DNA of 64,000 nt from Nemopilema nomurai (taxonomy: Eukaryota > Cnidaria > Scyphozoa > Rhizostomeae > Rhizostomatidae). The notes beneath the pieces were generated by a model. That model was not told where the DNA came from and made no database searches. It worked only from the letters and a program-made list of their open reading frames with translations. The stretch is from contig ML133503.1 of assembly GCA_003864495.1 (NCBI GenBank), positions 558,001 through 622,000 of the forward strand. The letters are read 5' to 3'. Of the stretch, positions 3,001-64,000 are shown one piece after another; position 1 is the first letter of the stretch, and each line of letters starts with the position of its first letter. Both the position numbers and the translations under genes were made by a program.

Positions 3001-6000
3001 TGGTAGAGGCAATTAGAATTAGAAATTGGCAATTAGAAACACAATTCCCCCTATCCTTCAAGAAGCTGTCTTTAATCTAATCTCTTCCAATAAACCCTAT
3101 ATGCTGGTATAAATTTCCAGCACATGCAACTTAGGCAACCAATTACTCTATATTAGATAAACATACTTCGTGTATCCTTGTTTGTACTTCATTTTAGCAC
3201 AAAGAGGACTTGTTTTGGCTACAGACACAGGTGTAAAAAACCCAAAACAGTAAATGCACGAGCATCAATTTTAATGTCGACCCCAATATCCGCCACCACA
3301 TCAAATTGTTTCTCCAGGCTAGTAGCGAAACAAAAGACTTTGGCGGAGAATTCAAAGATCAAAACACTGCAGCTACTTGTAATAGGCGCGTGAAACCGCT
3401 AAAAGGACGAAATGACCACAAGAAAGGAGACGGAGAGAGCGGGTTAGATCATATACTATGCCTGTCAAGAGTCCTTAGAACACCACAGTATTTGGTTTTT
3501 GCGTTTCTCATTCCTTTGACGCGCCAATGGCAGGTTATCTCCCTCCCCCCTTATCTCCCCCCTCCCTTAAACAGTGTTGTTAACAAAGTATAGCATCTAG
3601 TTAATCTGGGGAAAAACGTTGGGCGCGAAAATGAAGGTTCGTTTAGCTGCAGGACAGCATTGTACGTAGGGGGAGCGGGGGGGGGGGGATTGGGGTAGAT
3701 GAACGTGAGTCAAATAATAGTCGTTAGTTTTCCAACAATTTAGGCAGGCATTGTAGTTGAACTAGACTGCATAGGACTTTCTCAAAATGCGTTAAAGTTC
3801 CAAAACGTCTGAGTTCGAGCGAAAAACAAGACAGTCCTCTCTCAGAACGACTCAAAGATCTACAGCACACCTGTTGCTTATCCTGTGCTTCTGTGCTTGG
3901 TGCTTCCGTTGACGTTTTCATAACAGGGAACGGAGGGAGGGATCGTGGCGTAGGGGAACCCAGAGCATCAGTTGAATGTGCATCGGGGAGGGACGCTGGA
4001 GGTACAACGACTGGTTTGGTTGATGTTGAAAAGAGCGGTGTCTGGGTTGTGGTCCAGGGCACGGATGTTGTCCTGGCTGGTGCTAACTGTACTCCTGGTG
4101 CTAGTTGTTGTGGGGGAATCTGTCGTAGGGGAATCTGTGGTGGGACATGCCCTTGGTGATCTCACAAAACTTTCAAGGACGTTATCTGATAAAATTGAAA
4201 ATAATTGTTAGCAAATATGATTAGTCTATATGTTTCAAAATGTTTGTTTGATATAGTAGTTCTTGATAAATTCGAAATATGAGAAACAGTTAAAAAGTGA
4301 GAAAATAGAAAATACATCATAACGAAAACACAAAATCAACAGCATTGACAGAATGAGCACAAGCTGCCTAGAGAATCTTGGTTCAAAAGCAGAAAAAAAT
4401 TTCCTTCTTAACACAAAATATAAAGTAACACAAAGCTAACCGTCATATCGGCCACCAACTTTGAAATACAAACACGATGATTTAGTTGTGCTTCCTTTGC
4501 ATTCAATATCCATACTCAGCAACTTTCCTTTCAGCTTCTTCCATACTGTGTCAGCATCTTCAGAAAGCTTCCACTAAAATGAAAATGTTTTAATATGGTT
4601 ATTAGAGTCAACCAACAACCAGGTAAGCACAAGTAAATTTTAAAAAATGCTTTAACAGGCTTAGTCCTTGTAGCAAGCATCACTTTTATTCACTAAATCA
4701 AAAATCAACCCTTAGAATGAGAAATGGTATTTTATCTGTCATCAATCCATTTCTTCTAGCCTTCTCATTTCTTATCACACTGCACCTATTCTTTTTAGTG
4801 ACATTTTTTGTGAGAGGATCTTCAATCAGCAGTCCACAGGCACCGCAGAGCGGGGGGGCTGAGGGGGCTTTAGCCGCCCCCCCCAATTTTTGCAAAAGAT
4901 GCAAAATATTAAGTAATAAACTACCAATAAAGCCTCTCTTTTAATGGTTTTAGCCCCCCCCCACTTTTTCTAGACACCCCATTTTTCTCAACACTCTGCC
5001 ATGCCTTGTCCATCTAAAAAATTTGTAGCCACAGTCAAATGACACTAATCAAATTTCCAATCAACCATTTCTGATAAGGTTGAGAGAAGATATCAAATGC
5101 AGCTTGCCTAAACTAGGCTCTAATCAATGCATCTGCAGTAACAGTTATGCTATAGCTATGCTACAATGTGTTAATAATTAAAACTAAATTACAATACATC
5201 CTTTGTAAAAGTCATCTCAGTCTTTTCAGTTAAGTTCAAAGTGAAGCTTAAATAGGTGGTTTGCAACAAGTAAAACAGAAAAAATGTTTTAAACAGGATA
5301 CCATTCAGGCTTCCTATGTGTCAATACATTATATCCCCTGTCCTATCAAAAATCAATGACTGAACCTTTCTTACCTGTTAGCTAGAAAGCTAAAGTTGTA
5401 TTTAAACCTATTGCTTGTCTCTTTTGGCAATTATTGCAAGCCACTTCATTTAATTAAAACTATGCTTCAGTGCAGTGTTACAGGTCATAGGCCACAGATA
5501 ATCGCTCAATTTCAAACTTTCTGGTACTAGCCATAAGGGGCGTATAGGGGGGGGGGGGGGTGTGCACCCCTCTCATTTTTGGAAAATTTGAAATTTTTGA
5601 TTTTGGTTGCTAAGTTCACCCATTTACCTAAAGCACCTAACTCACCTGAAACATGTGCTGTATCTCCTCATCTACGGTGGCAATGGTTTTTAAGGAAATC
5701 ACCTCTGAGCAGCGATTTTCAACTAATCTAGTCTTTATGCCTAATTGGTTAAAATAGTATATAGTTGTAGCCTTGCAAGTTCCTTCTATTAGAAGTTCTC
5801 TTGTTTTTGGGAATTTTCCCTCCAGTACAATTCCTGATTCTATATCAAGATAACTAGTTATTGTAGGAATAAATGTTGATCCTGATCCAAGCAGATTGTA
5901 AACACAGGCACCACCTAGAAAAAATAGAAAACTATCTGAGCAATTTTTATTTTTTTTAAGGTAGCAGGAAATAACGAATTAGCAGAAAATCAAAAGTTCA

Positions 6001-46300: not shown

Positions 46301-49300
46301 GCCTAGAGGTAGGTCTGAGCCACCGAGCCCGCATGCAAATGCTCTGCCGAAGCGGCCATTGCTGCCGAAAGCCGAGCCTGTTGGCGCAATACGACCTGGA
46401 AGGCTGGGCGGGGATGCTGCGTCGAAGCCAAGAAGATTACTAAGTGAAAACAACGAGTTTGAGAAGAAGGAAAGACAACATGGAAGTTCTTCTCGGAGTG
46501 AAACAAACGGTGTCGCTGATGGTGAGTTTATTCTGAATTTCATTTAATCGACTTAGAGTTGTGGAGAAATGAATTCTAAACTAGTGATGTCGAATATTAT
46601 GTTTTATAATATATTATATTATATTATACTATAATATAATATAATATAATATGACATAACATAATATAATATAATATAGTATAGCATAATATAATATTAT
46701 ATAATAATTGACTATATTGTAAAATTATTTTGTATACGTTGTTATTTGATATCATTTGTATTAAGTCATGTTTAATTATACATTTGGGCAATTAAGCAAC
46801 GGTCTTCATTTTTGTAGAATCGATGTACTCGAAGGCTGTAGTGAACCCACGTGTCAAATCAGAGCAAGCGGTGTACGAATCGATTTGGAGCCCATCGAAG
46901 CAAGCACCTAGCGAGGTATGTCAAGTGTTTGAGCCTAGTTGATCTTCGTTTCCAGAATGCGTTCATTCCTGAAGTCCTATTCAGCGTTTCCAACTCATTT
47001 GAGAAATGGACAGTATTAATTGACCAAACTGTCAAATGTGTTATTGGCATCTATGGCAATTTAATTGATTTAACCGATCAAGTAAGTGACCTTAGCGTTA
47101 ATTAATTTACACGGCGGGCGCCCAGGAACGCAATAGGAATGGAAACATAAGACGATGATTTATGGATTGATTTTTTGCAATGGCCGCAAAGCTGCTGTTG
47201 TATTAATACCTTTTAATATAAGGAACATTTTTATTTTATTGCGTTTTTGTGTGTGCTAATATCAGGTTTTTAATTAATTACTTTTTCGGTATCAAAACAG
47301 GAGTTGCCCCCTGAATTACCCCCAAGAACGCTAGATTCCCTGATATTAACTGGCAGGATTGCAGCAGATGAAAACCACTGCCTTGAAGAGGAAGGTGCAA
47401 AGGGTAATCGAGTTTTTAATGTTTTTCTATTGAATGACCTAAATGCTAAGCAATTTGTTATGACAATATTCAGATTTCTTCAAGGCCAATTTATCCGTTT
47501 CCATAATATGAAAATATTTTTGCAGAGGTCGAAGAAGCTTCCCCAAAGGAATCAGAAAGCACTGCGTCTGGAGAACAGGGGGGAATCCCCTGGCTTTCAG
47601 CTGGGATGGACCGCCTTATTAAAATTGCACACATCAAAGAAGTTGTATGTATCCTAAAAGTGGTTTGATTCAAGTTGACTTTAATTCTGTCTCGATACAA
47701 AAACGAAGCAAGCAATTCTGTTAAAACTTTCGATGCAAGCTTACACCCGCTTGTTCTTTTGATTCTAATGAACTCTACTGATGGCGAATAAGCTTTTCTT
47801 TCCTTTGCGTTTGTAAATGTCACTTTGATGGCCACAAGTTAATAGAAAGGCCATTAATTTCTAAAAGTAGGCACACGGGGCTATGCTGTGATTGCTGTAA
47901 TTTTAACTTTTGCTACAGGTTTTGATACAGATTGTGTTTTTCTAACTTTCAGTTTGCTTCGAAAGCTCCCTCGCGGCAAACTTTGGCAGGGAGTAACTCT
48001 CAGTTTTACGCGGAGGCTGCCCATCCAGGTAGTAAAAATATTTGAATTTTCTTGTCATCTAAAGGCATGTGAATAGAATCAAAATTCATTCACGGGAAAT
48101 ATCTACGATATCAATGTCTCATCTTCCCCAAAAGTTGCTATTTTGTTGTTTTAAAAGTTGCCTCGTAGTCGTATTGAGTATGAATCTCGGACTAGGGACC
48201 TGGAGCCATCTTTCCCTGTTTATCAAGTTTCGTTATTATACAATTTTATTGGGTCGTTTCCATCAGTTTGTACTCTGTCTTCAATTAACCGCAGTCACGA
48301 TTTCGAGAAAGCGCGGAAACATGATTTTAGCATACTGAACCACGTGATAAATGCGCGTGTTTGGCTGTTTAACGACCAATCAACAAGTGAGAAGATGACG
48401 AATTCGTCTTGATGTCCGGCCTAAACAAAGGAACATGTTGATGTCCCTTAGGCTGTTTCTAGAACCACCACTATTTTAATAGTCTCAGAAGCTTGAATGT
48501 TTTGTCATATTTCGTATTGCTACATATAATACAAAGGTCGTTTTATGATTATGTTTCATTTCAGGGCCACCTATCAAAGAGTATCAAAAGCCAACTACTT
48601 CTTCATCAACAAACTTTGAAATGAGTGAGTGATGTTATTTCTTACTTCCCCTTTTTCAATCTATGATTAAGATCCATGATTATATGCTGTCTTTAGCGAA
48701 AGGTAAGTCTCCGCTCAGTTCTATTCTATCCTATCCAATTTTTGTTCATGTTATTTTATTCCATTTTACTTTATTTTATTTCCTCTCATCTCATCATATT
48801 AATTTTGTTTGATTTCATTTTATTTTATTATATCATATTCTATTTGGTTCTCTTCCATTTCATTCTGTCTTGCTCTGCTCCCCTGTTCTGTTCTGCTTTG
48901 TCCTGTTCTGTTCTGTTCTGTTCTGTTCTTTTCTATTCTGTTCTGTTCTGTTCTGTTCGTCTTTGATTTGTTCTATTCTGCTCTGTCCTGCCCTGTTCTG
49001 CTCTATTCTGCTCTATCCTATCCTGTTCTGTTCATCTCTGATTTGTTCTGTTCAGTTATGTTCTGTTCTGTTCCGTTCTATGCTGTTCTATTATTACGTT
49101 ATGTTAATTATGTTCATTATTACATCTTTATATTTATCCGTTGCCTACGTCTGTTATCAATTGACTGACCAATACCCTGACCTACACACAGATAGATTCA
49201 AAATGTAAACAAGTGTGATTTGTTTTGCAGCATTTGGTCATAGACTGCCTCACAAGCCCAAGGGACCCAGACCGATGCCAACCAAGTGGCAGTCCACTTG

Positions 49301-49301: not shown

Positions 49302-52246
49302 TTCTTGTCAGCAAAATACGCAAGTAAAAACAACAGACATTACGCTATAAAAATTAGAGTAGATCCAGCGTAAACTCTTGAATTGAATAACAGGTTATAA
49401 CTTGTCGCTTACGATTCTCAAACTCTCTGTCCGAGCTAGATAGCCTAAAATTTATGAAAAGGAGATTGCAATAAACTGTACAAAAGTTTTTAAGCCAATG
49501 AAAACTTGTGGACAAATCGAGTGACCCCCTGCTAGCGCCTTATTTTCCATATTTCGTAACCTGAGTTGGATGACGATGCTTATGAATTTCTGTATTGAAC
49601 GAGATATAGGTTTTTCATGGTTGTTATTCAATAGGGGCTGCCCCAAAGAAGTTCTTGAAGATTGCCCCTCAAGCTTCGTCATCTCTTGGACAGGTATCTA
49701 GTGAATCTGGATCGCTGGATGAGTAATCTCGTTTTCAAATCTGTGAGGCTTAGTTGCTCGCTCATAGGCGGAGAGCATGGGAACCTTCTTAAGGTCATCT
49801 TGAGTCAGAGGTTATATGCTCCCCGGCCGAATTGTTAATGCTAATATCAGTTTTGTCTGTTGTTTTGTCTGAGTTGCACTTCTTTTTGTCTATTATTCGA
49901 AATTTTGTAATTCATGGTATTTTTATTCTAGTCGTTTTTTATTTGATTTTTGCTAAATAGATTTGGTACAAAATTTTAGGGGTGGTTTCTATTTTATTCG
50001 GGGGAGAATTTTTATTTGTTAGGAATATTTTTCTTATGTCAATGTAATTTTTTCATTCCCATTTGATTTTTAGCTTACCTAAATAGAACTCATATTGTAC
50101 TTGTATGATTCTTTTCTATATGCTTATTTATTGTTTAGCTATTTTGTACCAAGATAATTTCACAGAACATGGCATAGTAGCAGTCACATCCTTGAAAATT
50201 TGTTTGTAGATGATTTGAACTTTTATCTTATTGTCTGAAGACGGTCCCTATCCTTACCCAACCCATTTTGGTAGATAGCTTACACAACCAAATTCGACCA
50301 GCCAAAGGGATTTCTGCTTCTCCGTTTTATTTTCTGTCTTGAGGCTTTTAAATATTTTGAAATAGGCTTGAGCTGAGAATACAGTAAGATTGATCAGCCT
50401 CAAGCGTTAACTAGAATTCGCAGTTATATCATACCGATGAAGCACCGTTGTTAATTAGTTAACAGCAGGTTTGGTGCCTTCGTTATAGGATTTTAAGTAG
50501 ATAGTCAGTTATTTTACAGAAGATCAAAAGTAATTAATTTGGTGCAATAGGACCTGATATACGGTCTCAGTTGTTGTTGTTGTATGCAGTGGTCAATGTG
50601 GCATTGGATTTGAATATCCTAGCTGCATTCAGCTTTGTTTAGTTTACGGATTTCAAAAGACATTAGCTCTTTTGTGACAGCAGCTAATTCAATTTTTATA
50701 TTGTTACTTAACATAATTCATACTTGTATATTTCTTTATGATTAGTGGATTTACCTTTGAAATAAAATTTCTCGTTTATAAATAGAAGGCATTGTCCTTG
50801 AATGTGTACATCATTTTATCGTCCACTGTGACCCACTTCGATTTTCGTGTTTTCTCCGGGACAAGCTGTTATCAATTTTATGACACAGTGTCCCTTTTAC
50901 CTTGAAAAACCTGCTCCCATGGAAACTGCAGAGATAGAGAGATATGCACTAGGGGTGCCGACTAAATTTCCAAAGAGTCATGTTTGGTCTTTTGTATTCA
51001 ATATTCAACTTCTTTCGAAGAAGAAAACTTAACTCATTCTTGCAAAAAGGACCTGTAGTAACTTGTTTGTCTACTTTCCATTTCACACATGAATGCTGAC
51101 ACCCTTTCTCGCATCTCAGCTTAAACTGTTCATTTCAATTACATCATCATTTCATCGTCCAATCTCATCCCTCGTCAGCAAAAATTATTTTTAGGATAGT
51201 AGTATAGATATAACTGTTAAGTTCAGTTCTAGTCAGAGTCTCTCTCTCGGCCTGGCTCCGTATTTTCTGCACGTTAGACAAGACAATTATCGCTCGGATT
51301 GTCCATAGAGGATGAGGTACGCAGTCGTTAGGAACCCTGACCAATACTATGAATTTATAGCCAGAAACTTCACTTAAAAGCATCAACTACATTCATAACC
51401 AGAGGGGACGAAAGTGCTCATCCCCCCCCCCCCCAGTTAAACTCCAAGCCCCACCTTTGCAAGGCGCCTGTCCCTTCCGTATTTGGTACATGAAGAAATA
51501 AACAAACGTCATAAAAGATTAGTATGCAAATCTTTGACGTTCATCTATGGACAGATGTCTTGTTTTCCCAATTTTTCTATAATCTTTTGGACTCTAATGC
51601 ATTATTTGAGACACTTTTAGACATCGATTCGCTTGTTTATGATGAAGAAGAACATGTGCCTAAAGTATCCATCTGTCTTTTCCCAGAGAAGTTTGAATGC
51701 TAAATGTAAACGCTGTGCTCTTGTGTGGGTGACAGCAAATATTGGACAAAGTGCTCTTTTGAGTTAACAAGTAGATCAATAATTCAACTTCGCGTCTACA
51801 AAATTGGTTGCAAACAGAGTAGGGCATCAGTTCTACATTCAATATTCAAAAGCAACGATACGAAGATAAATTTGCTCCTGTTTGTGAGAGTAGGTCGTGA
51901 CTGAACTGGCAACTTTGCAAAACATCTTGAAAACGCAGAGATTTGTAAATGGAAAGATACAGGAATGCAGGCTTCTTGTCTAAAGCAGAGTGAATGATAT
52001 CCAAACGCATGCGTAGTGTGTTTGTCAGTTCAGAGAGCCGAAATCTGGGAGCTACTTTTTAGAAGAGAAATTTGCAGTAAATGTCCGCTTAACTTGAAAT
52101 TAGGAGAGCTTACGTCATTGACAAACAATAAGGCTAAAATACTCTTTGCTTGCAGCAAGGCGAAAGACAAGACTTTCCCACATAACAAGTTTATATTTCA
52201 TTCTGACAAAGCTAAGGTACTTCAAGTCTACCAATATCTTGGCCTA
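49302..52246. other. PTP-PEST 3' UTR and intergenic DNA up to the array
   Basis: About 2.9 kb with an AATAAA near 50760. No gene seen. A run of C lies near 51422. The region ends with the TA at 52245-52246 that abuts the first M segment of the tandem array. Confidence 0.5.
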
Positions 52247-52522
52247 CAATGCCTGCCAAAAGTCCTTGGAACACCTCATTATTTTCTCTGGTTTTCGCAT
52301 TTTTCATTTCCTTGACACGCCACAAGCTGTTAATCCCCCTCCTCCCCCCTAAAACAATGTTGGTAACAAAGTAAAGCATCCAGTCAATCTGGGGAAAAAG
52401 TTTGGTCTAAAATTGACGCTTCGTTTAGCAGCAACACAACATTGTTCGAAGGGGGGGAGGGGGATAAGTGAACGCGAGTCAAAGAATTGTCGTAAGTGTG
52501 CCAACAATTTTGGCAGGCATTG
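52247..52522. repeat. Fold-back segment M, copy 1
   Basis: 276 bp whose two halves are imperfect inverted repeats. Outer arms: CAATGCCTGCCAAAA is repeated inverted at the end. Further in, TTGACACGCC pairs loosely with GCGAGTCAA, the C-rich run near 52335 faces the G-rich run near 52455, and AACAATGTTG pairs with CAACATTGTT. The strand should be able to fold into one long imperfect hairpin. A diverged solo copy is at 3456-3753. Confidence 0.88.
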
Positions 52523-52612
52523 TCTGAAATTTTTTTTGAAAACTGGGGGTTTTTGAAAAATAAAGGCTATTTGACATGGGGTTTTCGATGGCGCTGATTT
52601 TATTTCTGGCAA
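52523..52612 (+). repeat. Left terminal inverted repeat of body E, unit 1
   Basis: Starts TCTGAAATTTTT. The 19-bp block GGTTTTCGATGGCGCTGAT at 52580-52598 lies 57 bp from the end. The right end of E (56846-56935) has the same blocks inverted at exactly the same distance (56860-56878). Between the blocks the two arms differ. Confidence 0.85.
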
Positions 52613-52977
52613 AAAAAGTTTAATTTTTTCAGACCCAGTAGGGGTTTCAGGGGGTTGGGTCTAATTAGTGCTTGTCTTGGCACCTTTCAATGCAATAAAC
52701 AGCACTTCATGCTCATGGGACTTTTCATTCATATTTTAAGCTTGGAAAACTATTCACCAATAAGAATAGAAGAAATTTGGCGAATTAGAATAAAATTGGC
52801 TAATTAGAATATGCAAAAAGGTCATTTCAAAGAAACACGATTTTTCTGTTATGATTGAAATTACTTCACACTAAGTATGAAAGGGTGCATCGGTCGCTTT
52901 TCAATGGATTGTTGCAAAATATGTCTAAATATAGAATAGAATTTAATTATACGACACGTGTTTCTGGAGAAAAAAAG

Positions 52978-52985
52978 TATAAAAT
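52978..52985 (+). promoter_or_regulatory. TATA box of the transposase gene, unit 1
   Basis: TATAAAAT about 60 bp before the ATG at 53046, which is the first ATG after the expected transcription start. Repeated in each unit (57669-57676, 62360-62367). Confidence 0.55.
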
Positions 52986-53045
52986 CCCTAGATTTAGAGC
53001 AATCAGATCTAACAGAGGACTCACATCTACAGAGGATTACTCTTG

Positions 53046-54140
53046 ATGCTTCAGAGGATGGTCTTCCATACAAAGATAAGTGCAAAGACACGGGCCTATG
53101 CCTACTATCTACGATTAGAGAGAGGAATATCGTATCGGAAAGTTGCTGATATTTGCAAAATATCTCCTTCGAGTGTTGTACGAATTTCTCGAGAAGGTCT
53201 TCAGGTGAAACAACACAAAGAACGAGCTGGACGACCATCAGTTATGAACAAGAGAGAAAGGGCAAGATTTCTTAGAACATTCAAACGAATGAGGAATGAA
53301 AATTCAAATATCAAAGTGATGGATATAGCCAAGGAGAGTGAAATAACACGCAACGTTAGCTACCGGACACTCGTTAGAGTTTTGAATCAAGCGGGGTACA
53401 AGTGCTTACGGCCGAGACGCAAAGGAGTCTTATCGTCTGCAGATAGAAGACAAAGAGTTCGCTATGCCAAAGAGGCCCTTCGAACACACGACCAAAGGTT
53501 TTGGTGTGACGAAGTTCTCGTTTATTTGGATGCAGTTTCATTTGTACACAAACAGAATCCCTACAGAGATGCATTGACGCCATGTGGAAGAATCTGGAGA
53601 AAATCAAGTGAGGGACTGGAATATACGACAAAAGGAAGCAAAAGCCTACCTGAGGGGCGGAGGTTGCATGTCATGGTGGGCGTTGGATTTTCTTCAGGGG
53701 TAGTAATTGCCGAAGAATACGAGAAGATGAATGGAAGGTGGTTTGCAAAGTTTGCAGAAAATACTTTACAGCATGTACTTTTAGAATGCGCTCATTTCAA
53801 AAAGAGGGACAAACTGCTTTTTGTAATGGATAATGACCCAAGTCAAAACAGCAGAATAGCCAAAGATATGTTGAACGAAATTGGTGCAGAAGTCGTAAAA
53901 ATACCCCCGAGATCACCAGACTTGAATCCAATAGAGAATGTATTTCACAACGTAAAACGACAGATGACTAAAGAAGCGCTTAGGGGAAGAATAGAGAAGG
54001 AGGACTTCAACGGCTTCAGAAAGAGGGTACTGAGGACACTTGCCAATTTCAATACTTCTGTCATCGATTCAACGATAAAATCTATGCACGAGCGCCTGAA
54101 AATGGTTGTACGTAACGAAGGACACAGAACAAAGTACTAG
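53046..54140 (+). CDS. Tc1-type DD34E transposase, unit 1
   Basis: 364 aa, no intron, intact. Family: IS630/Tc1/mariner. The N-terminus has paired-type helix-turn-helix DNA binding (RGISYRKVADICKISPSSV, about residues 26-45), a GRP linker (62-64) and a second HTH (about 88-118). Catalytic residues: Asp162 (VYLDAVSF), Asp262 (FVMDNDPSQNS) and Glu297 (SPDLNPIENVF), with 34 residues between the last two, which is the DD34E signature of Tc1. The enzyme should bind terminal repeats and integrate at TA. I use the ATG at 53046; the preceding codon is TTG. A polyadenylation signal AATAAA lies 56 bp after the stop. It converges on the Rep gene. Confidence 0.93.
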   Translation: MLQRMVFHTKISAKTRAYAYYLRLERGISYRKVADICKISPSSVVRISREGLQVKQHKERAGRPSVMNKRERARFLRTFKRMRNENSNIKVMDIAKESEITRNVSYRTLVRVLNQAGYKCLRPRRKGVLSSADRRQRVRYAKEALRTHDQRFWCDEVLVYLDAVSFVHKQNPYRDALTPCGRIWRKSSEGLEYTTKGSKSLPEGRRLHVMVGVGFSSGVVIAEEYEKMNGRWFAKFAENTLQHVLLECAHFKKRDKLLFVMDNDPSQNSRIAKDMLNEIGAEVVKIPPRSPDLNPIENVFHNVKRQMTKEALRGRIEKEDFNGFRKRVLRTLANFNTSVIDSTIKSMHERLKMVVRNEGHRTKY

Positions 54141-54195
54141 ATTAACTTTATAATGTTTAATACTGATTGATGGCTCTTGCATTGCAACGCTAACC

Positions 54196-54201
54196 AATAA
54201 A
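54196..54201 (+). terminator. Polyadenylation signal of the transposase, unit 1
   Basis: AATAAA 56 bp after the stop codon at 54140. The same site recurs at 58887-58892 and 63578-63583. Confidence 0.6.
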
Positions 54202-54442
54202 GTAGATGAATAGAATCGTTCCATGGTGCTGCTCCTCCGCACCGACAGCCAGGTGACAATAGAAATGTTTCATTTTTCCCACTTATTCTTTAATTTCTCA
54301 TGTACACAATATTTTTTTTCATCAAAAAACTTTCGCATTCTGATTTAAATTTGCTATTCGTTATTTGTAGCGCTTCTCTTCATCTAAAAAGCCGCTTGTT
54401 TGCTAGCAAGCAAAGGCGCGAGTTGAAAAGTGTCTGTTCTCC

Positions 54443-54843
54443 ACGGTTTACCCCACGGTTTACCATTTGTAAAATGCTTATAACTTTGTTGTTAACTTGA
54501 GAAAATTAATTTTTTTTTTGTAAGAAGTGGTGCAATGCTTTTATGAAGGTAATTGTCAACTTTGATGTAGCTTTGATAAGTGCGAAACGAGAAAATCGAG
54601 AAATGGTCCACGGTTTACCCTTTTTGCAATTCAAATTTGATGTCTTCAGAAGCTTTCTCATTTTCAACGGTTTACCATACAGTTCCGTAAATTTCTTCCC
54701 TCAAAGCGAAGATATTCTAAAGAAAAGTTCATGTCTGGGTAGGTTTCGTAGAAGCACCACTTCTATAAAAAGATGGGAGCAAATAGTTCACGTGCTGATG
54801 AATAAATGGGGAAAAAGTGCCACGGTTTACCATACGGTTTACC
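54443..54843. repeat. Iteron field ACGGTTTACC x6, unit 1
   Basis: Six exact same-strand copies of ACGGTTTACC at 54443, 54455, 54610, 54667, 54822 and 54834. Two are close pairs 12 bp apart. Each has GGT-TT-ACC symmetry. The field fills the gap between the 3' ends of the transposase and Rep genes. Repeats like this are typical binding sites of replication initiators; binding by this Rep is an inference. Confidence 0.8.
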
Positions 54844-55015
54844 ATTTGGACGACCATTCGGGGATGCATCGCAGCACAAGAATGTGCTCGAGACATTGCC
54901 ACTGCCTAGGTGGTCTTTGTTAAGTATCAAGACTTTATTGAAGACAATAGCAATCCAGCATAGTAAATCAAGAAAAAACAAAGCATGCGATCATTAATGA
55001 CAGTGGATGTCACTT

Positions 55016-55021
55016 TTTATT
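55016..55021 (-). terminator. Polyadenylation signal overlapping the Rep stop codon, unit 1
   Basis: On the minus strand AATAAA spans the Rep stop (TAA at 55019-55017). A signal this tight to the stop is typical of compact mobile elements. It recurs at 59707-59712. Confidence 0.55.
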
Positions 55022-56321
55022 GTCGCTCTAAAACGAGTTTGGCAAAACAATGCCCACAGGAAGGAACACTTCTCTGCACACGCTCTTCGAACTGATGTCT
55101 GAAGTTGAAGACTCGCCATCGAACGTTCATCATTTCCGTCTCGCGTTCATCAAACATGGAGCCTTTGATGAAAGTGATGGGTGCTTTTGCAGTGGCAAAG
55201 ACGGGAGTGCCAAGGCTGAGCTCGATATCCTTGCTATAGGATGTCTTAGGAGCAGCGAAGTGGACAACTGCACCTTCGAGCAACTGCAGCATGTCACTCC
55301 ACGGAAGTATGACAGGTGACCATCTAAAATCATTGAGAAATATAACCTCCTTTTCTTCGACTCCAAGCCATGCATAGGAACATGTGGCTGGAGAAAGAAA
55401 GGCGTTATAAACAACCCTGACTGGGTCGAGGATAAAGGTTTTGCCGCAATTCGCTGGGCCACAAATGTAAATATTTCGGCCCTTGCCACGACCTTTGTCG
55501 AGTAACGTAAAGATGGCCTCGGCAAAAACAGGTTGGTCGATTGAATTTTTCTCTAGTATTTCTAAGGCACATTGGAGCCATTCCCCCTTGCAGACACAGG
55601 GAGAAGCCAGCTGTTGCTGCAAGATCTGAACCCTTGTCATTCCTGCTCTTTGTAGCTTCGAATTTGCCATCTCCATCTCCCACGTCGTATCCAGCAATTC
55701 CCTGATTTTCTTATCGCTTCGTCCTAGGACAAAGTCGTACAGACGCGAGTCCCCTTGGTCTACAGAGGATCTTGCAAGGCCAAGCAGCTCCAAGCGAGAA
55801 TGCACTTTGTGCTTGATGGCCATCCTGGCAACATCAGGATTCGATAGACGCTTTGGTTTTTTGGACCTTTTAGAACATTTATTCCTTTTAGCTCTTGTAG
55901 CCTCTGCTGTTTTTGGAGCTGCTACATGAGGATGTTGCTCGCTTTTAATAAAAGCCCCGTCTTCCTTCGCAACATAATTGAAGGCAGTGTGGTAGCCACT
56001 GTGGCCAGAAAAGTTAACAGTAATTTTGTGGCGATCATTTAGATGCGTTTTTACCTTCACCCACCTTTGAATACGGTCGAGAAGGACACACATATGAAAA
56101 TGATATGCACCATTCTTGTGCTGCTCCATACAGCATGCCCATTGCTCCACAGTAGCATTGGTGCTTTCGTTAAAAGCATTTACCACGATTGTGGAGAACT
56201 TTTCGCGGTCAAAGATTTTAGTGTCCGCATCACTGTATGTAATCAGGTAAACTTTTCTCACAACACGTCTTCCAAGATTTTCTGGTGCTTCCACCTCGTT
56301 AGATTGAGTTCCAGTTGCCAT
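55017..56321 (-). CDS. HUH endonuclease-SF3 helicase Rep protein, unit 1
   Basis: 434 aa, no intron, intact. The N-terminal HUH nuclease has motif 1 VYLITYSD (24-31), motif 2 HFH (74-76) and motif 3 with the nicking tyrosine YVAK (Tyr116, Lys119). A basic linker follows (144-158, rich in Lys/Arg, possible nuclear signal). The C-terminal SF3 helicase has Walker A GPANCGKT (288-295), Walker B VIFLNDF (326-332) and motif C PVFATAKAPI (373-382), in which the usual Asn is not evident. Such proteins nick an origin and unwind DNA in rolling-circle or rolling-hairpin replication. They are known from CRESS-DNA and parvo-type viruses and from related copies in eukaryotic genomes. No capsid gene is near. 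It converges on the transposase across the iteron field. Confidence 0.88.
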   Translation of the reverse strand: MATGTQSNEVEAPENLGRRVVRKVYLITYSDADTKIFDREKFSTIVVNAFNESTNATVEQWACCMEQHKNGAYHFHMCVLLDRIQRWVKVKTHLNDRHKITVNFSGHSGYHTAFNYVAKEDGAFIKSEQHPHVAAPKTAEATRAKRNKCSKRSKKPKRLSNPDVARMAIKHKVHSRLELLGLARSSVDQGDSRLYDFVLGRSDKKIRELLDTTWEMEMANSKLQRAGMTRVQILQQQLASPCVCKGEWLQCALEILEKNSIDQPVFAEAIFTLLDKGRGKGRNIYICGPANCGKTFILDPVRVVYNAFLSPATCSYAWLGVEEKEVIFLNDFRWSPVILPWSDMLQLLEGAVVHFAAPKTSYSKDIELSLGTPVFATAKAPITFIKGSMFDERETEMMNVRWRVFNFRHQFEERVQRSVPSCGHCFAKLVLERQ

Positions 56322-56572
56322 ATTAATAAACGTAGTATGTTGCGTAAATTTTCAAATTGCACGACTGGCAAAAAAATTGGCAGTTATTACCTCGATCGCT
56401 TTTGTACACAGCCTCGATCTCAAAACGCCTCGGCTTACGTTTATTGGAGCTTCTCAAAGTTTTACTCACGTAAAAAAATTTTTTATTCTGAAACAAGCTT
56501 AAAATGTTTTTGTCCATTGTCCATGCCCAATTTCCAGTTTCCCTTTGAGTAAACATTTTCATAATGTAGCTA

Positions 56573-56611
56573 GATAAGTCAATAAAGTAGCTCTTTTCAA
56601 TAGGACTTATC
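56573..56611. other. Stem-loop upstream of Rep, unit 1
   Basis: GATAAGTC (56573-56580) and GACTTATC (56604-56611) form a perfect 8-bp stem with a 23-nt loop, 250 bp upstream of the Rep start. TCAATAAA occurs on both sides. A weaker hairpin, ATTCT-AGTATTCA-AGAAT, lies at 56780-56797. Either could be an origin or a regulatory structure; there is no exact viral-type nonanucleotide. Confidence 0.35.
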
Positions 56612-56845
56612 AATAAAAGTGCTACTATTCTAGCCTCCTTTAACTATGCAATTTTTCATAATAAGTCTAATATACTCAAGTTGACGTACGTGAAAATCTA
56701 ACTAGATCACTTTTCCAAGCAAATTTGATTCTTCATGGATGCTTATGGGTAACAAAGTTGATCCCCGGGGGGTCACGGTATTCTAGTATTCAAGAATCAA
56801 GAACACCCCCATAGCTTAAAACTGGCTTGGAATTTTGAAAAAATA

Positions 56846-56935
56846 ACCTGAAAAATGAGATCAGCGCCATCGAAAACCTATGGTTTGATAATGGTTTTGG
56901 GGTCATTATTAACAGTTTTGAATAAAAATTTCAGA
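56846..56935 (-). repeat. Right terminal inverted repeat of body E, unit 1
   Basis: Ends AAAAATTTCAGA and continues into the next M (CAATGCC...). On the minus strand it reproduces the left end of E: TCTGAAATTTTT and, 57 bp in, the 19-bp block at 56860-56878. Confidence 0.85.
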
Positions 56936-57211
56936 CAATGCCTGCCAAAAGTCCTTGGAACACCTCATTATTTTCTCTGGTTTTCGCATTTTTCATTTCC
57001 TTGACACGCCACAAGCTGTTAATCCCCCTCCTCCCCCCTAAAACAATGTTGGTAACAAAGTAAAGCATCCAGTCAATCTGGGGAAAAAGTTTGGTCTAAA
57101 ATTGACGCTTCGTTTAGCAGCAACACAACATTGTTCGAAGGGGGGGAGGGGGATAAGTGAACGCGAGTCAAAGAATTGTCGTAAGTGTGCCAACAATTTT
57201 GGCAGGCATTG
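56936..57211. repeat. Fold-back segment M, copy 2, at a unit junction
   Basis: Identical in layout to copy 1, but here E ends flank it on both sides: AAAAATTTCAGA before and TCTGAAATTTTT after. M with its flanks is a larger inverted repeat. Confidence 0.88.
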
Positions 57212-57736
57212 TCTGAAATTTTTTTTGAAAACTGGGGGTTTTTGAAAAATAAAGGCTATTTGACATGGGGTTTTCGATGGCGCTGATTTCATTTCTGGCA
57301 AAAAAAGTTTAATTTTTTCAGACCCAGTAGGGGTTTCAGGGGGTTGGGTCTAATTAGTGCTTGTCTTGGCACCTTTCAATGCAATAAACAGCACTTCATG
57401 CTCATGGGACTTTTCATTCATATTTTAAGCTTGGAAAACTATTCACCAATAAGAATAGAAGAAATTTGGCGAATTAGAATAAAATTGGCTAATTAGAATA
57501 TGCAAAAAGGTCATTTCAAAGAAACACGATTTTTCTTTGTTATGATTGAAATTACTTCACACTAAGTATGAAAGGGTGCATCGGTCGCTTTTCAATGGAT
57601 TGTTGCAAAATATGTCTAAATATAGAATAGAATTTAATTATACGACACGTGTTTCTGGAGAAAAAAAGTATAAAATCCCTAGATTTAGAGCAATCAGATC
57701 TAACAGAGGACTCACATCTACAGAGGATTACTCTTG

Positions 57737-58831
57737 ATGCTTCAGAGGATGGTCTTCCATACAAAGATAAGTGCAAAGACACGGGCCTATGCCTACTATC
57801 TACGATTAGAGAGAGGAATATCGTATCGGAAAGTTGCTGATATTTGCAAAATATCTCCTTCGAGTGTTGTACGAATTTCTCGAGAAGGTCTTCAGGTGAA
57901 ACAACACAAAGAACGAGCTGGACGACCATCAGTTATGAACAAGAGAGAAAGGGCAAGATTTCTTAGAACATTCAAACGAATGAGGAATGAAAATTCAAAT
58001 ATCAAAGTGATGGATATAGCCAAGGAGAGTGAAATAACACGCAACGTTAGCTACCGGACACTCGTTAGAGTTTTGAATCAAGCGGGGTACAAGTGCTTAC
58101 GGCCGAGACGCAAAGGAGTCTTATCGTCTGCAGATAGAAGACAAAGAGTTCGCTATGCCAAAGAGGCCCTTCGAACACACGACCAAAGGTTTTGGTGTGA
58201 CGAAGTTCTCGTTTATTTGGATGCAGTTTCATTTGTACACAAACAGAATCCCTACAGAGATGCATTGACGCCATGTGGAAGAATCTGGAGAAAATCAAGT
58301 GAGGGACTGGAATATACGACAAAAGGAAGCAAAAGCCTACCTGAGGGGCGGAGGTTGCATGTCATGGTGGGCGTTGGATTTTCTTCAGGGGTAGTAATTG
58401 CCGAAGAATACGAGAAGATGAATGGAAGGTGGTTTGCAAAGTTTGCAGAAAATACTTTACAGCATGTACTTTTAGAATGCGCTCATTTCAAAAAGAGGGA
58501 CAAACTGCTTTTTGTAATGGATAATGACCCAAGTCAAAACAGCAGAATAGCCAAAGATATGTTGAACGAAATTGGTGCAGAAGTCGTAAAAATACCCCCG
58601 AGATCACCAGACTTGAATCCAATAGAGAATGTATTTCACAACGTAAAACGACAGATGACTAAAGAAGCGCTTAGGGGAAGAATAGAGAAGGAGGACTTCA
58701 ACGGCTTCAGAAAGAGGGTACTGAGGACACTTGCCAATTTCAATACTTCTGTCATCGATTCAACGATAAAATCTATGCACGAGCGCCTGAAAATGGTTGT
58801 ACGTAACGAAGGACACAGAACAAAGTACTAG
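57737..58831 (+). CDS. Tc1-type DD34E transposase, unit 2
   Basis: Same 364-aa product as in unit 1, intact, with Asp162, Asp262 and Glu297. TATA box at 57669-57676, polyadenylation signal at 58887-58892. Full domain description is under unit 1. Confidence 0.93.
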   Translation: MLQRMVFHTKISAKTRAYAYYLRLERGISYRKVADICKISPSSVVRISREGLQVKQHKERAGRPSVMNKRERARFLRTFKRMRNENSNIKVMDIAKESEITRNVSYRTLVRVLNQAGYKCLRPRRKGVLSSADRRQRVRYAKEALRTHDQRFWCDEVLVYLDAVSFVHKQNPYRDALTPCGRIWRKSSEGLEYTTKGSKSLPEGRRLHVMVGVGFSSGVVIAEEYEKMNGRWFAKFAENTLQHVLLECAHFKKRDKLLFVMDNDPSQNSRIAKDMLNEIGAEVVKIPPRSPDLNPIENVFHNVKRQMTKEALRGRIEKEDFNGFRKRVLRTLANFNTSVIDSTIKSMHERLKMVVRNEGHRTKY

Positions 58832-59133
58832 ATTAACTTTATAATGTTTAATACTGATTGATGGCTCTTGCATTGCAACGCTAACCAATAAAGTAGATGA
58901 ATAGAATCGTTCCATGGTGCTGCTCCTCCGCACCGACAGCCAGGTGACAATAGAAATGTTTCATTTTTCCCACTTATTCTTTAATTTCTCATGTACACAA
59001 TATTTTTTTTCATCAAAAAACTTTCGCATTCTGATTTAAATTTGCTATTCGTTATTTGTAGCGCTTCTCTTCATCTAAAAAGCCGCTTGTTTGCTAGCAA
59101 GCAAAGGCGCGAGTTGAAAAGTGTCTGTTCTCC

Positions 59134-59534
59134 ACGGTTTACCCCACGGTTTACCATTTGTAAAATGCTTATAACTTTGTTGTTAACTTGAGAAAATTAA
59201 TTTTTTTTTTGTAAGAAGTGGTGCAATGCTTTTATGAAGGTAATTGTCAACTTTGATGTAGCTTTGATAAGTGCGAAACGAGAAAATCGAGAAATGGTCC
59301 ACGGTTTACCCTTTTTGCAATTCAAATTTGATGTCTTCAGAAGCTTTCTCATTTTCAACGGTTTACCATACAGTTCCGTAAATTTCTTCCCTCAAAGCGA
59401 AGATATTCTAAAGAAAAGTTCATGTCTGGGTAGGTTTCGTAGAAGCACCACTTCTATAAAAAGATGGGAGCAAATAGTTCACGTGCTGATGAATAAATGG
59501 GGAAAAAGTGCCACGGTTTACCATACGGTTTACC
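59134..59534. repeat. Iteron field ACGGTTTACC x6, unit 2
   Basis: Six copies at 59134, 59146, 59301, 59358, 59513 and 59525, all on the plus strand, with the spacing of unit 1. Confidence 0.8.
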
Positions 59535-59707
59535 ATTTGGACGACCATTCGGGGATGCATCGCAGCACAAGAATGTGCTCGAGACATTGCCACTGCCTAG
59601 GTGGTCTTTGTTAAGTATCAAGACTTTATTGAAGACAATAGCAATCCAGCATAGTAAATCAAGAAAAAACAAAGCATGCGATCATTAATGACAGTGGATG
59701 TCACTTT

Positions 59708-61012
59708 TTATTGTCGCTCTAAAACGAGTTTGGCAAAACAATGCCCACAGGAAGGAACACTTCTCTGCACACGCTCTTCGAACTGATGTCTGAAGTTGAA
59801 GACTCGCCATCGAACGTTCATCATTTCCGTCTCGCGTTCATCAAACATGGAGCCTTTGATGAAAGTGATGGGTGCTTTTGCAGTGGCAAAGACGGGAGTG
59901 CCAAGGCTGAGCTCGATATCCTTGCTATAGGATGTCTTAGGAGCAGCGAAGTGGACAACTGCACCTTCGAGCAACTGCAGCATGTCACTCCACGGAAGTA
60001 TGACAGGTGACCATCTAAAATCATTGAGAAATATAACCTCCTTTTCTTCGACTCCAAGCCATGCATAGGAACATGTGGCTGGAGAAAGAAAGGCGTTATA
60101 AACAACCCTGACTGGGTCGAGGATAAAGGTTTTGCCGCAATTCGCTGGGCCACAAATGTAAATATTTCGGCCCTTGCCACGACCTTTGTCGAGTAACGTA
60201 AAGATGGCCTCGGCAAAAACAGGTTGGTCGATTGAATTTTTCTCTAGTATTTCTAAGGCACATTGGAGCCATTCCCCCTTGCAGACACAGGGAGAAGCCA
60301 GCTGTTGCTGCAAGATCTGAACCCTTGTCATTCCTGCTCTTTGTAGCTTCGAATTTGCCATCTCCATCTCCCACGTCGTATCCAGCAATTCCCTGATTTT
60401 CTTATCGCTTCGTCCTAGGACAAAGTCGTACAGACGCGAGTCCCCTTGGTCTACAGAGGATCTTGCAAGGCCAAGCAGCTCCAAGCGAGAATGCACTTTG
60501 TGCTTGATGGCCATCCTGGCAACATCAGGATTCGATAGACGCTTTGGTTTTTTGGACCTTTTAGAACATTTATTCCTTTTAGCTCTTGTAGCCTCTGCTG
60601 TTTTTGGAGCTGCTACATGAGGATGTTGCTCGCTTTTAATAAAAGCCCCGTCTTCCTTCGCAACATAATTGAAGGCAGTGTGGTAGCCACTGTGGCCAGA
60701 AAAGTTAACAGTAATTTTGTGGCGATCATTTAGATGCGTTTTTACCTTCACCCACCTTTGAATACGGTCGAGAAGGACACACATATGAAAATGATATGCA
60801 CCATTCTTGTGCTGCTCCATACAGCATGCCCATTGCTCCACAGTAGCATTGGTGCTTTCGTTAAAAGCATTTACCACGATTGTGGAGAACTTTTCGCGGT
60901 CAAAGATTTTAGTGTCCGCATCACTGTATGTAATCAGGTAAACTTTTCTCACAACACGTCTTCCAAGATTTTCTGGTGCTTCCACCTCGTTAGATTGAGT
61001 TCCAGTTGCCAT
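59708..61012 (-). CDS. HUH endonuclease-SF3 helicase Rep protein, unit 2
   Basis: Same 434-aa product as unit 1, with HFH (74-76), Tyr116, Walker A 288-295 and Walker B 326-332 intact. The minus-strand AATAAA at 59712-59707 overlaps the stop. The upstream stem-loop recurs at 61264-61302. Confidence 0.88.
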   Translation of the reverse strand: MATGTQSNEVEAPENLGRRVVRKVYLITYSDADTKIFDREKFSTIVVNAFNESTNATVEQWACCMEQHKNGAYHFHMCVLLDRIQRWVKVKTHLNDRHKITVNFSGHSGYHTAFNYVAKEDGAFIKSEQHPHVAAPKTAEATRAKRNKCSKRSKKPKRLSNPDVARMAIKHKVHSRLELLGLARSSVDQGDSRLYDFVLGRSDKKIRELLDTTWEMEMANSKLQRAGMTRVQILQQQLASPCVCKGEWLQCALEILEKNSIDQPVFAEAIFTLLDKGRGKGRNIYICGPANCGKTFILDPVRVVYNAFLSPATCSYAWLGVEEKEVIFLNDFRWSPVILPWSDMLQLLEGAVVHFAAPKTSYSKDIELSLGTPVFATAKAPITFIKGSMFDERETEMMNVRWRVFNFRHQFEERVQRSVPSCGHCFAKLVLERQ

Positions 61013-61626
61013 ATTAATAAACGTAGTATGTTGCGTAAATTTTCAAATTGCACGACTGGCAAAAAAATTGGCAGTTATTACCTCGATCGCTTTTGTACAC
61101 AGCCTCGATCTCAAAACGCCTCGGCTTACGTTTATTGGAGCTTCTCAAAGTTTTACTCACGTAAAAAAATTTTTTATTCTGAAACAAGCTTAAAATGTTT
61201 TTGTCCATTGTCCATGCCCAATTTCCAGTTTCCCTTTGAGTAAACATTTTCATAATGTAGCTAGATAAGTCAATAAAGTAGCTCTTTTCAATAGGACTTA
61301 TCAATAAAAGTGCTACTATTCTAGCCTCCTTTAACTATGCAATTTTTCATAATAAGTCTAATATACTCAAGTTGACGTACGTGAAAATCTAACTAGATCA
61401 CTTTTCCAAGCAAATTTGATTCTTCATGGATGCTTATGGGTAACAAAGTTGATCCCCGGGGGGTCACGGTATTCTAGTATTCAAGAATCAAGAACACCCC
61501 CATAGCTTAAAACTGGCTTGGAATTTTGAAAAAATAACCTGAAAAATGAGATCAGCGCCATCGAAAACCTATGGTTTGATAATGGTTTTGGGGTCATTAT
61601 TAACAGTTTTGAATAAAAATTTCAGA

Positions 61627-61902
61627 CAATGCCTGCCAAAAGTCCTTGGAACACCTCATTATTTTCTCTGGTTTTCGCATTTTTCATTTCCTTGACACGC
61701 CACAAGCTGTTAATCCCCCTCCTCCCCCCTAAAACAATGTTGGTAACAAAGTAAAGCATCCAGTCAATCTGGGGAAAAAGTTTGGTCTAAAATTGACGCT
61801 TCGTTTAGCAGCAACACAACATTGTTCGAAGGGGGGGAGGGGGATAAGTGAACGCGAGTCAAAGAATTGTCGTAAGTGTGCCAACAATTTTGGCAGGCAT
61901 TG
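61627..61902. repeat. Fold-back segment M, copy 3, at a unit junction
   Basis: 276 bp, flanked by inverted E ends like copy 2. Spacing from copy 2 is 4691 bp. Confidence 0.88.
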
Positions 61903-62427
61903 TCTGAAATTTTTTTTGAAAACTGGGGGTTTTTGAAAAATAAAGGCTATTTGACATGGGGTTTTCGATGGCGCTGATTTCATTTCTGGCAAAAAAAGTT
62001 TAATTTTTTCAGACCCAGTAGGGGTTTCAGGGGGTTGGGTCTAATTAGTGCTTGTCTTGGCACCTTTCAATGCAATAAACAGCACTTCATGCTCATGGGA
62101 CTTTTCATTCATATTTTAAGCTTGGAAAACTATTCACCAATAAGAATAGAAGAAATTTGGCGAATTAGAATAAAATTGGCTAATTAGAATATGCAAAAAG
62201 GTCATTTCAAAGAAACACGATTTTTCTTTGTTATGATTGAAATTACTTCACACTAAGTATGAAAGGGTGCATCGGTCGCTTTTCAATGGATTGTTGCAAA
62301 ATATGTCTAAATATAGAATAGAATTTAATTATACGACACGTGTTTCTGGAGAAAAAAAGTATAAAATCCCTAGATTTAGAGCAATCAGATCTAACAGAGG
62401 ACTCACATCTACAGAGGATTACTCTTG

Positions 62428-63522
62428 ATGCTTCAGAGGATGGTCTTCCATACAAAGATAAGTGCAAAGACACGGGCCTATGCCTACTATCTACGATTAG
62501 AGAGAGGAATATCGTATCGGAAAGTTGCTGATATTTGCAAAATATCTCCTTCGAGTGTTGTACGAATTTCTCGAGAAGGTCTTCAGGTGAAACAACACAA
62601 AGAACGAGCTGGACGACCATCAGTTATGAACAAGAGAGAAAGGGCAAGATTTCTTAGAACATTCAAACGAATGAGGAATGAAAATTCAAATATCAAAGTG
62701 ATGGATATAGCCAAGGAGAGTGAAATAACACGCAACGTTAGCTACCGGACACTCGTTAGAGTTTTGAATCAAGCGGGGTACAAGTGCTTACGGCCGAGAC
62801 GCAAAGGAGTCTTATCGTCTGCAGATAGAAGACAAAGAGTTCGCTATGCCAAAGAGGCCCTTCGAACACACGACCAAAGGTTTTGGTGTGACGAAGTTCT
62901 CGTTTATTTGGATGCAGTTTCATTTGTACACAAACAGAATCCCTACAGAGATGCATTGACGCCATGTGGAAGAATCTGGAGAAAATCAAGTGAGGGACTG
63001 GAATATACGACAAAAGGAAGCAAAAGCCTACCTGAGGGGCGGAGGTTGCATGTCATGGTGGGCGTTGGATTTTCTTCAGGGGTAGTAATTGCCGAAGAAT
63101 ACGAGAAGATGAATGGAAGGTGGTTTGCAAAGTTTGCAGAAAATACTTTACAGCATGTACTTTTAGAATGCGCTCATTTCAAAAAGAGGGACAAACTGCT
63201 TTTTGTAATGGATAATGACCCAAGTCAAAACAGCAGAATAGCCAAAGATATGTTGAACGAAATTGGTGCAGAAGTCGTAAAAATACCCCCGAGATCACCA
63301 GACTTGAATCCAATAGAGAATGTATTTCACAACGTAAAACGACAGATGACTAAAGAAGCGCTTAGGGGAAGAATAGAGAAGGAGGACTTCAACGGCTTCA
63401 GAAAGAGGGTACTGAGGACACTTGCCAATTTCAATACTTCTGTCATCGATTCAACGATAAAATCTATGCACGAGCGCCTGAAAATGGTTGTACGTAACGA
63501 AGGACACAGAACAAAGTACTAG
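62428..63522 (+). CDS. Tc1-type DD34E transposase, unit 3
   Basis: Third intact copy, identical in translation to units 1 and 2. TATA box at 62360-62367, AATAAA at 63578-63583. Confidence 0.93.
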   Translation: MLQRMVFHTKISAKTRAYAYYLRLERGISYRKVADICKISPSSVVRISREGLQVKQHKERAGRPSVMNKRERARFLRTFKRMRNENSNIKVMDIAKESEITRNVSYRTLVRVLNQAGYKCLRPRRKGVLSSADRRQRVRYAKEALRTHDQRFWCDEVLVYLDAVSFVHKQNPYRDALTPCGRIWRKSSEGLEYTTKGSKSLPEGRRLHVMVGVGFSSGVVIAEEYEKMNGRWFAKFAENTLQHVLLECAHFKKRDKLLFVMDNDPSQNSRIAKDMLNEIGAEVVKIPPRSPDLNPIENVFHNVKRQMTKEALRGRIEKEDFNGFRKRVLRTLANFNTSVIDSTIKSMHERLKMVVRNEGHRTKY

Positions 63523-63824
63523 ATTAACTTTATAATGTTTAATACTGATTGATGGCTCTTGCATTGCAACGCTAACCAATAAAGTAGATGAATAGAATCG
63601 TTCCATGGTGCTGCTCCTCCGCACCGACAGCCAGGTGACAATAGAAATGTTTCATTTTTCCCACTTATTCTTTAATTTCTCATGTACACAATATTTTTTT
63701 TCATCAAAAAACTTTCGCATTCTGATTTAAATTTGCTATTCGTTATTTGTAGCGCTTCTCTTCATCTAAAAAGCCGCTTGTTTGCTAGCAAGCAAAGGCG
63801 CGAGTTGAAAAGTGTCTGTTCTCC

Positions 63825-64000
63825 ACGGTTTACCCCACGGTTTACCATTTGTAAAATGCTTATAACTTTGTTGTTAACTTGAGAAAATTAATTTTTTTTT
63901 TGTAAGAAGTGGTGCAATGCTTTTATGAAGGTAATTGTCAACTTTGATGTAGCTTTGATAAGTGCGAAACGAGAAAATCGAGAAATGGTCCACGGTTTAC
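63825..64000. repeat. Iteron field, unit 3, truncated by the window end
   Basis: Copies of ACGGTTTACC at 63825 and 63837, and a third starting at 63992 that is cut after nine bases. Confidence 0.75.

Follow-up and report, generated by a model that had tools for sequence, protein, structure and literature searches.

We examine here a 64,000-nucleotide stretch of the genome of the scyphozoan Nemopilema nomurai (contig ML133503.1 of assembly GCA_003864495.1, positions 558,001 to 622,000; called the window below), which ends in a tandem array of a mobile element encoding two intact proteins, a Tc1-type transposase and a Rep protein with predicted HUH nuclease and SF3 helicase parts. We will argue that this is probably an autonomous Tc1-type DNA transposon carrying a viral-type Rep, which inserts at TA through the ends of a palindromic module, called M, and which Rep would replicate into circles or multimers. 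The block structure, the insertion at TA, the directionality, the pairing of the two genes, the selection on them and the recency of the copies are read from the assembly itself and are presented first, followed by the mechanism and its competitors.

Structure of the element

From position 52246 to its end, the window is a head-to-tail array with a unit size of 4689 or 4691 bp. The three in-register copies start at 52246, 56935 and 61626, spaced by 4689 and then 4691 bp, and the differences between units 1 and 2 are a single base, at 52601, and an indel of 2 nt, at 52846. Each unit consists of M, a 276-bp imperfect palindrome, and E, a part of 4.41 kb that carries both genes. In unit 1, M1 (52247..52522; forward strand, as are all features here unless stated) ends in CAATGCCTGCCAAAA and TTTTGGCAGGCATTG, and E1 (52523..56935, 4413 bp) runs from TCTGAAA to TTTCAGA. 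E1 bears two subterminal inverted repeats, the outer with arms at 52524..52545 and, on the reverse strand, 56913..56934 (22 bp, 91% complementary), the inner with arms at 52580..52605 and, likewise reversed, 56853..56878 (26 bp, 92%). The intact genes for the DD34E transposase (53046..54140, 364 residues) and for the Rep (55017..56321, reverse strand, 434 residues) are convergent, and between them lie six copies of CGGTTTACC (54442..54843), which are possible iterons.

The inner junction of units 1 and 2 is formed by M2 (56936..57211) in the context GA-M-TC, and it is followed by E2 (57212..61626, 4415 bp) with its transposase (57737..58831) and Rep (59708..61012, reverse strand). M3 (61627..61902) joins units 2 and 3. 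E3 (61903..64000) holds a transposase (62428..63522) and is cut by the window end; the Rep of this unit lies at C137:622402-623703, where C137 is the contig of the window and other contigs are labeled in the same way. At its far end, C137:624593, the array closes with M and TA, and it begins in the same manner, with M next to the TA at 52245..52246. A preliminary description of this DNA had reported a 4.69-kb tandem unit with the two intact convergent genes and nothing else resembling a gene, and this is borne out: at an E of 0.001, Pfam has no match to any of the nine other open reading frames (ORFs) of at least 80 residues in unit 1.

M deserves closer attention. Its ends are 16-bp perfect inverted repeats (52246-52261 and 52508-52523), as in the terminal inverted repeats (TIRs) of Tc1/mariner elements, and they are at the same time the outer ends of the whole inserted block. 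The module (52246-52523) has a DNA folding z-score of −7.8 against 200 shuffles. It is also dispersed without E: six solo copies are 96-100% identical, each in the form TA-M-TA, and an older M-like copy with TA on both sides and 73% identity to M lies in the window itself (3456..3753). Genome-wide, the exact M-end word occurs 950 times, 549 of them after TA, 320 after GA and 81 after other bases, and the reversed control pattern has no match. Among the first 100 listed TA ends, 44 pair into 22 solo M (222-295 bp), 6 bound longer blocks, and 50 are without an intact partner in the list.

The orientation of M is constant. In the loci read, the inner M ends point one way in all 50 cases of family 1, to which the window belongs, and in all 20 cases of a diverged family 2 (on C133), and we found no flipped M of the flip/flop kind known from Parvoviridae. 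Rolling-hairpin replication of the type of adeno-associated virus (AAV) is therefore not favored.

Insertion at TA

The arrangement TA-[M-E]n-M-TA is found in all 14 assembled loci, not all of them independent, in which both outer ends are intact and read. The value of n is 16 on C123 (75,297 bp), 3 for the window array on C137, 2 on C117, C86 and C56 (at 100 kb), 1 on C10, C42 (with a deleted E) and C133 (at 2442 kb, family 2), and 0 at six solo M loci; the inner Ms are flanked by GA and TC. Eight more ends, read on one side, likewise lie at TA. The C10 copy (C10:508694-516525) is inserted beside a tandem repeat with a spacing of roughly 190 bp that is also present on C15 and C54.

Two joined-flank queries yielded three uninterrupted sites. 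On C9, the right flank of C123 (reversed, 2033 bp, 99.4%) continues into the right flank of C117 (669 bp, 98.8%); on C62, the left flank of the window array (1290 bp, 98.76%) continues into the right flank of C10 (101 bp, 100%); and on C107, which may be a paralogue, the left flank of C123 continues into the right flank of C137 at about 94%. In each case the two flank matches overlap at exactly one TA and no M is present, which means that insertion of the M-bounded block is a single step that duplicates the TA, as is typical of Tc1/mariner transposons. The preliminary description had inferred integration through the transposase, and had considered that the Rep body might carry target duplications of its own within an older transposon. 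No such duplications were found, and the intact outer limits are the M ends at TA.

Two other modes of insertion were considered. Campbell-type integration of a circle into a solo M is disfavored by the absence of M from the three uninterrupted sites, and the idea that E is a transposon with CAGT ends of its own, which came from the M-less junctions described below, is not supported, as no M-less E end at a TA was seen in the loci read.

The uninterrupted sites suggest that the insertions are heterozygous, and for this reason we think that they are recent. It is important to point out that the flanks are paired differently across identical arrays, for which we think assembly error a better explanation than exchange between arrays. 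The unit counts at single loci, including that of the window, are therefore unsafe.

Association of the two genes

The preliminary description treated the two genes as one element, and the genome supports this. Among the matches listed in a search with the window's transposase, a convergent transposase lies within 3 kb at 34 of the 54 Rep loci. As 22 of these 34 pairs are units of the C123, C137, C117 and C86 arrays, we also give the number with array units counted once, which is 13 of 33 sites (hand count). The commonest distance between the two genes is 883 bp, and the pairing extends to old families, with Reps that are 51-69% identical, on C1, C2 and C133. For these counts, 37 of 99 Rep rows (fragments in a 1.94-kb satellite) were left out and the remaining 62 merged to 54 loci; 57 of 112 transposase rows were also left out, being repeated fragments nearly all from 3.09-kb arrays.

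Outside this genome, the protein database contains 620 relatives of the Rep and 438 of the transposase at E ≤ 0.001. Taking contigs of equal size as the same contig, we compared the 119 Rep and 119 transposase relatives listed with contigs and found eight equal sizes, in seven of which the source is 'ena' on both sides. Four of the eight are above 1 Mb, and shifted controls give none there, which, together with the pairs in this genome, speaks against the possibility, named in the preliminary description, that the pair never co-occurs elsewhere. In the controls, where sizes were shifted ten times by 1-5 bases, each shift produced 0-2 equal sizes (12 in total) and none above 10 kb, compared to the four observed. 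The mirror-tree correlation between Rep and transposase is r 0.54 (P 0.004, nine pairs); it becomes 0.74 (P 0.003) without the pair of size 4631, and 0.64 (P 0.05) when a fragment pair is also omitted. A further protein search gave 26 extra transposases, and by eye none is on a contig sized like that of a listed Rep.

The two proteins

The transposase of unit 1 matches Pfam DDE_3 at 3.6e-16, with HTH_Tnp_Tc3_2 slightly below the cut-off. Residues D162, D262 and E297 are invariant in all 18 aligned homologues, and the spacing of 34 residues between D262 and E297 defines it as DD34E. Together with the N-terminal helix-turn-helix (HTH), these are the features of a Tc1/mariner transposase, and the best solved relative is Sleeping Beauty SB100X (E 1.1e-8). 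The genome holds 17 identical intact copies; a named relative, in Dendronephthya gigantea, is 40% identical. The matches in PHROGs were weak and concerned the transposase only.

For the Rep, motifs and fold matches both point to an HUH nuclease with a catalytic tyrosine followed by an SF3 helicase. H74 and H76 are invariant in 77 of 77 aligned sequences, Y116 and K119 are present in at least 90%, the Walker A motif reads GPANCGKT, and G288-T295 and N330-D331 are conserved as well. The AlphaFold2 model has a mean pLDDT of 93, and its best solved whole-chain match is AAV Rep68 (9bc5, Foldseek E 2.2e-12). The fold is near those of AAV Rep68, B19 NS1, papillomavirus E1 and geminivirus Rep; the nuclease part is near geminivirus Rep, and for the helicase part SF3 proteins give the best fold matches. 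In addition to older copies, the genome has 22 full-length Rep genes that are open throughout and identical in protein to the window's. A named relative is that of Acropora millepora, with 44% identity. In genome_contigs, searched with the Rep, no relative was confirmed.

Age, selection and derivatives

The copies are very similar to each other. In 20 full units from C123, C137, C117 and C86 there are 63 variable columns among 4425, and 59 of the 63 are confined to one unit each. Four of 24 candidates were left out of this alignment, namely the shorter C2 copy, a 6096-bp one with N bases and two in which no right end was recognized.

In family 2, the Rep is open over 437 residues and 61% identical to that of family 1, and the transposase frame is broken. 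When the window unit is compared with family 2, mismatches at the three codon positions amount to 0.31/0.21/0.64 for the Rep and 0.40/0.26/0.54 for the transposase, which indicates purifying selection on both genes. Relative to the nearer, pseudogenised C2 copies the contrast is weak (0.028/0.019/0.040 for the Rep), as expected of dead copies.

The array on C123 has 15 inner junctions, nine with M and six without it, mostly alternating. The six M-less junctions are alike in the bases printed and read TTTCAGA-CAG-TCTGAAA, compared to the usual TTTCAGA-CAATG..CATTG-TCTGAAA. They are best read as the result of one M excision that left a 3-nt scar, followed by amplification of the dimer. Unit 10 of this array (C123:91759-97856, 6096 bp) holds 1803 N bases, and at C123:74110-75174 and 78566-79429 there are transposases with stops that are only 74-80% identical and stand beside an unchanged Rep, which may be due to decay or to poor assembly quality.

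The element has also given rise to satellites. The arrays at C36:5012001-5069018 and C31:934652-981349 have a 1940-bp unit made of a family-2 M and a remnant of the Rep C-terminus; four C36 units are 99.95-100% identical, and in the 840-850 bp compared, C36 and C31 match at 100%. A second kind of array, with a unit of about 3085 bp, occurs on C17, C76, C113, C122 and C132 and contains a transposase fragment and, where seen, a family-1 M, and a single unit of this type at C42:311697-315061 has the form TA-M-dE-M-TA. The satellite edges also show TA next to M, at the left of C36 and C122 and at the right of C31. These derivatives have kept M without intact genes, and the formation of their arrays would fit amplification in trans. 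Neither the satellites nor M and the TA-[M-E]n-M-TA rule were anticipated by the preliminary description.

Elsewhere in the window, inverted arms at 30737-31122 and 38739-39026, 92-93% complementary and about 8 kb apart, probably belong to another transposable element. Minisatellites with 36-bp and 24-bp units and two extended pentanucleotide arrays are also present (40087-40413, 41483-41632, 1681-2146 and 48883-49089).

Proposed mechanism

We now turn to the mechanism that we propose. The moving block is [M-E]n-M. The DD34E transposase that it encodes most likely works on the outer M ends (CAATGCC..GGCATTG) to place the block at a TA, which is duplicated. This role is suggested by the presence of the gene and by the Tc1-type target. 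As M carries an end of each kind, left and right, it can also move alone as a miniature inverted-repeat transposable element (MITE), presumably by the same agent.

Recombination between directly repeated Ms would free a circle in which a single M is joined to a single E. The Rep, with its nuclease like those of geminiviruses and CRESS viruses and its helicase like those of parvoviruses and papillomaviruses, would nick at M or at the intergenic repeats, and rolling-circle replication would then produce multimers, that is, head-to-tail arrays with one M per unit. Circles are favored over hairpins here because of the constant orientation of M. The GA-M-TC context of the inner Ms, which lacks TA, may hold the transposase to the outer ends, such that arrays would move as a whole; nicking by Rep at the border of M is one possible route by which an inner M could become an outer end. 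Deleted derivatives that keep M would be amplified in trans into the satellite arrays.

Several points weigh against this mechanism. The replication step is inferred, and unequal crossing-over between Ms would equally give homogeneous head-to-tail arrays. Excision of Tc1/mariner elements normally requires a flanking TA, which an inner M, with its GA and TC flanks, would lack when it first becomes an outer end. No conserved origin was found outside M: the repeats between the genes were rejected in this role, as they have no counterpart in family 2, where no 9- to 12-mer is present three times. The whole-chain TM-score of the Rep relative to AAV Rep68 is low (0.36-0.42) with a large root-mean-square deviation, so the domain packing differs. 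Among the matches listed, no convergent transposase lies within 3 kb at 20 of the 54 Rep loci, or 20 of the 33 sites, although many of these, in fact the larger part, are Rep fragments. One of the eight equal-size pairs (4631) is probably due to chance, its Rep being 87% identical to P0019 and its transposase only 41% to P0019's partner. Finally, two loci have a defective left M, which is truncated on C56 (at 492 kb) and rearranged on C2 (at 1525 kb), and in the 2.8 kb examined at the right border of the C36 satellite array no M was found. The rearranged M (C2:1525459-1525888) consists of two M parts in opposite orientation.

Alternative explanations

The alternative that survives best, which we regard as possible but rather unlikely, is that the element is a Tc1-type transposon whose arrays grow by host recombination only, through unequal crossing-over between Ms, with the Rep serving in regulation or repair or being a passenger. 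The direct M repeats at most inner junctions indeed invite unequal exchange, the arrays are internally homogeneous, the C123 junctions mostly alternate with and without M, and most Rep sites outside arrays have no detected transposase partner. On the other hand, the Rep is under purifying selection and is still paired with the transposase in diverged families, and the complete identity of the C31 and C36 satellites over the 840-850 bp compared suggests that arrays spread as such.

It is improbable that the multi-unit array of the window is a product of the assembly, put together from M-E-M insertions at several loci. This would account for uninterrupted sites that join C137 left to C10 right, C123 left to C137 right and C123 right to C117 right, and for the two-unit arrays of C117 and C86, which have a common left flank (6.5 kb, 99.9%) and unrelated right flanks, a mismatch that may reflect an assembly switch or an exchange between arrays; the block of 1803 N bases in C123 points in the same direction. 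However, the GA-M-TC junctions require real E-M-E sequence, and neither the diverged C56 and C133 dimers nor the M-less junctions could be produced by joining window-type monomers. The flanks of C56, moreover, form the palindromic target CACC-TA-GGTG and are plausibly a true pair.

A descendant of a small DNA virus (parvovirus- or papillomavirus-like, or CRESS-like) that has no capsid, has acquired a Tc1 transposase and spreads between individuals as an episome is very unlikely, even though the Rep fold is near those of such viruses and the terminal repeat is palindromic. M does not flip, the other ORFs of unit 1 have no Pfam match, and no relative was confirmed in viral_contigs (searched with Rep and transposase) or in phages (searched with Rep). 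It is hardly credible that E is an independent element which became caught between two copies of M, an unrelated MITE: M does stand alone at many places, as in the 22 solo copies mentioned above, but two families with Reps only 61% identical have the same M-E-M plan and the same GA-M-TC joints.

Comparison with known systems

With Tc1/mariner elements (DD34E, e.g. Sleeping Beauty) the element has in common the HTH and DD34E transposase, the duplicated TA, the TIRs and the MITE-like solo ends. It differs from them by its second gene, the HUH/SF3 Rep, by the 276-bp palindromic direct repeats at its ends, and by the occurrence of blocks of 0, 1, 2, 3 or 16 units and of derivative satellites. With AAV, a Dependoparvovirus, it shares the palindromic terminal repeat and a Rep whose best solved whole-chain match is Rep68, and AAV concatemers have one copy of the terminal repeat per head-to-tail junction, as M does here. 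Unlike AAV, it has no capsid gene among the nine other unit 1 ORFs searched against Pfam, its nuclease part resembles geminivirus Rep, the orientation of M is constant in the loci read, and insertion is at TA, beside a DDE transposase gene. Helitrons and Replitrons also bring an HUH enzyme into a eukaryotic transposon, but neither is known to have a DDE transposase as partner or to duplicate a TA. A Helitron has an SF1 helicase with a two-tyrosine HUH nuclease and is not known to make a target site duplication (TSD), whereas the helicase part here matches SF3 proteins and the TA is duplicated.

The closest precedent is the geminivirus-like transposon of the truffle Tuber melanosporum, which has a Rep-like ORF, transposase ORFs, TIRs and recent amplification (Liu et al. 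2011, PMC3198968). In the portions of that paper drawn on here, this fungal element is degenerate, with interrupted or truncated ORFs, a TIR of 37 bp, no obvious TSD and a transposase whose type is not given. The same portions describe NS1/E1-like helicase genes in repeated elements, namely DENSOV_HM of Hydra and the parvovirus-like repeats of the acorn worm Saccoglossus, the latter with a hairpin, and report no transposase for them (PMC3198968). The preliminary description, which knew of no described class with this pairing, was thus not quite right. For animals, none of the papers listed, judged by titles and the beginnings of abstracts, describes a Tc1-type transposase with an HUH/SF3 Rep; by the same measure, none describes the M-E-M plan, the TA rule or these satellites. 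We file the element as a variant of Tc1/mariner, with a fair chance that it constitutes a class of its own.

Implications

To increase in number, cut-and-paste transposons depend on tricks of the host. A transposon that brings a replication initiator of its own would, if this is what we are dealing with, answer that problem directly, and a single life cycle would connect Tc1 elements with small DNA viruses and with satellite DNA. We consider the chances about even that this is an animal element that is both transposon and replicon: integration would be the task of the Tc1-type transposase and copying, as circles or multimers, that of the viral-type Rep, and M would be transposon end, replication origin and terminal direct repeat in one. 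A single TA could then receive any number of units, and new satellite DNA would come directly out of replication. Because the copies resemble each other so closely and sister sites of near-identical sequence lack them, the element may be active at present, and it is thus testable. The M-bounded pairing of Rep and transposase may in that way explain both the movement of the element and the origin of long tandem satellite arrays.

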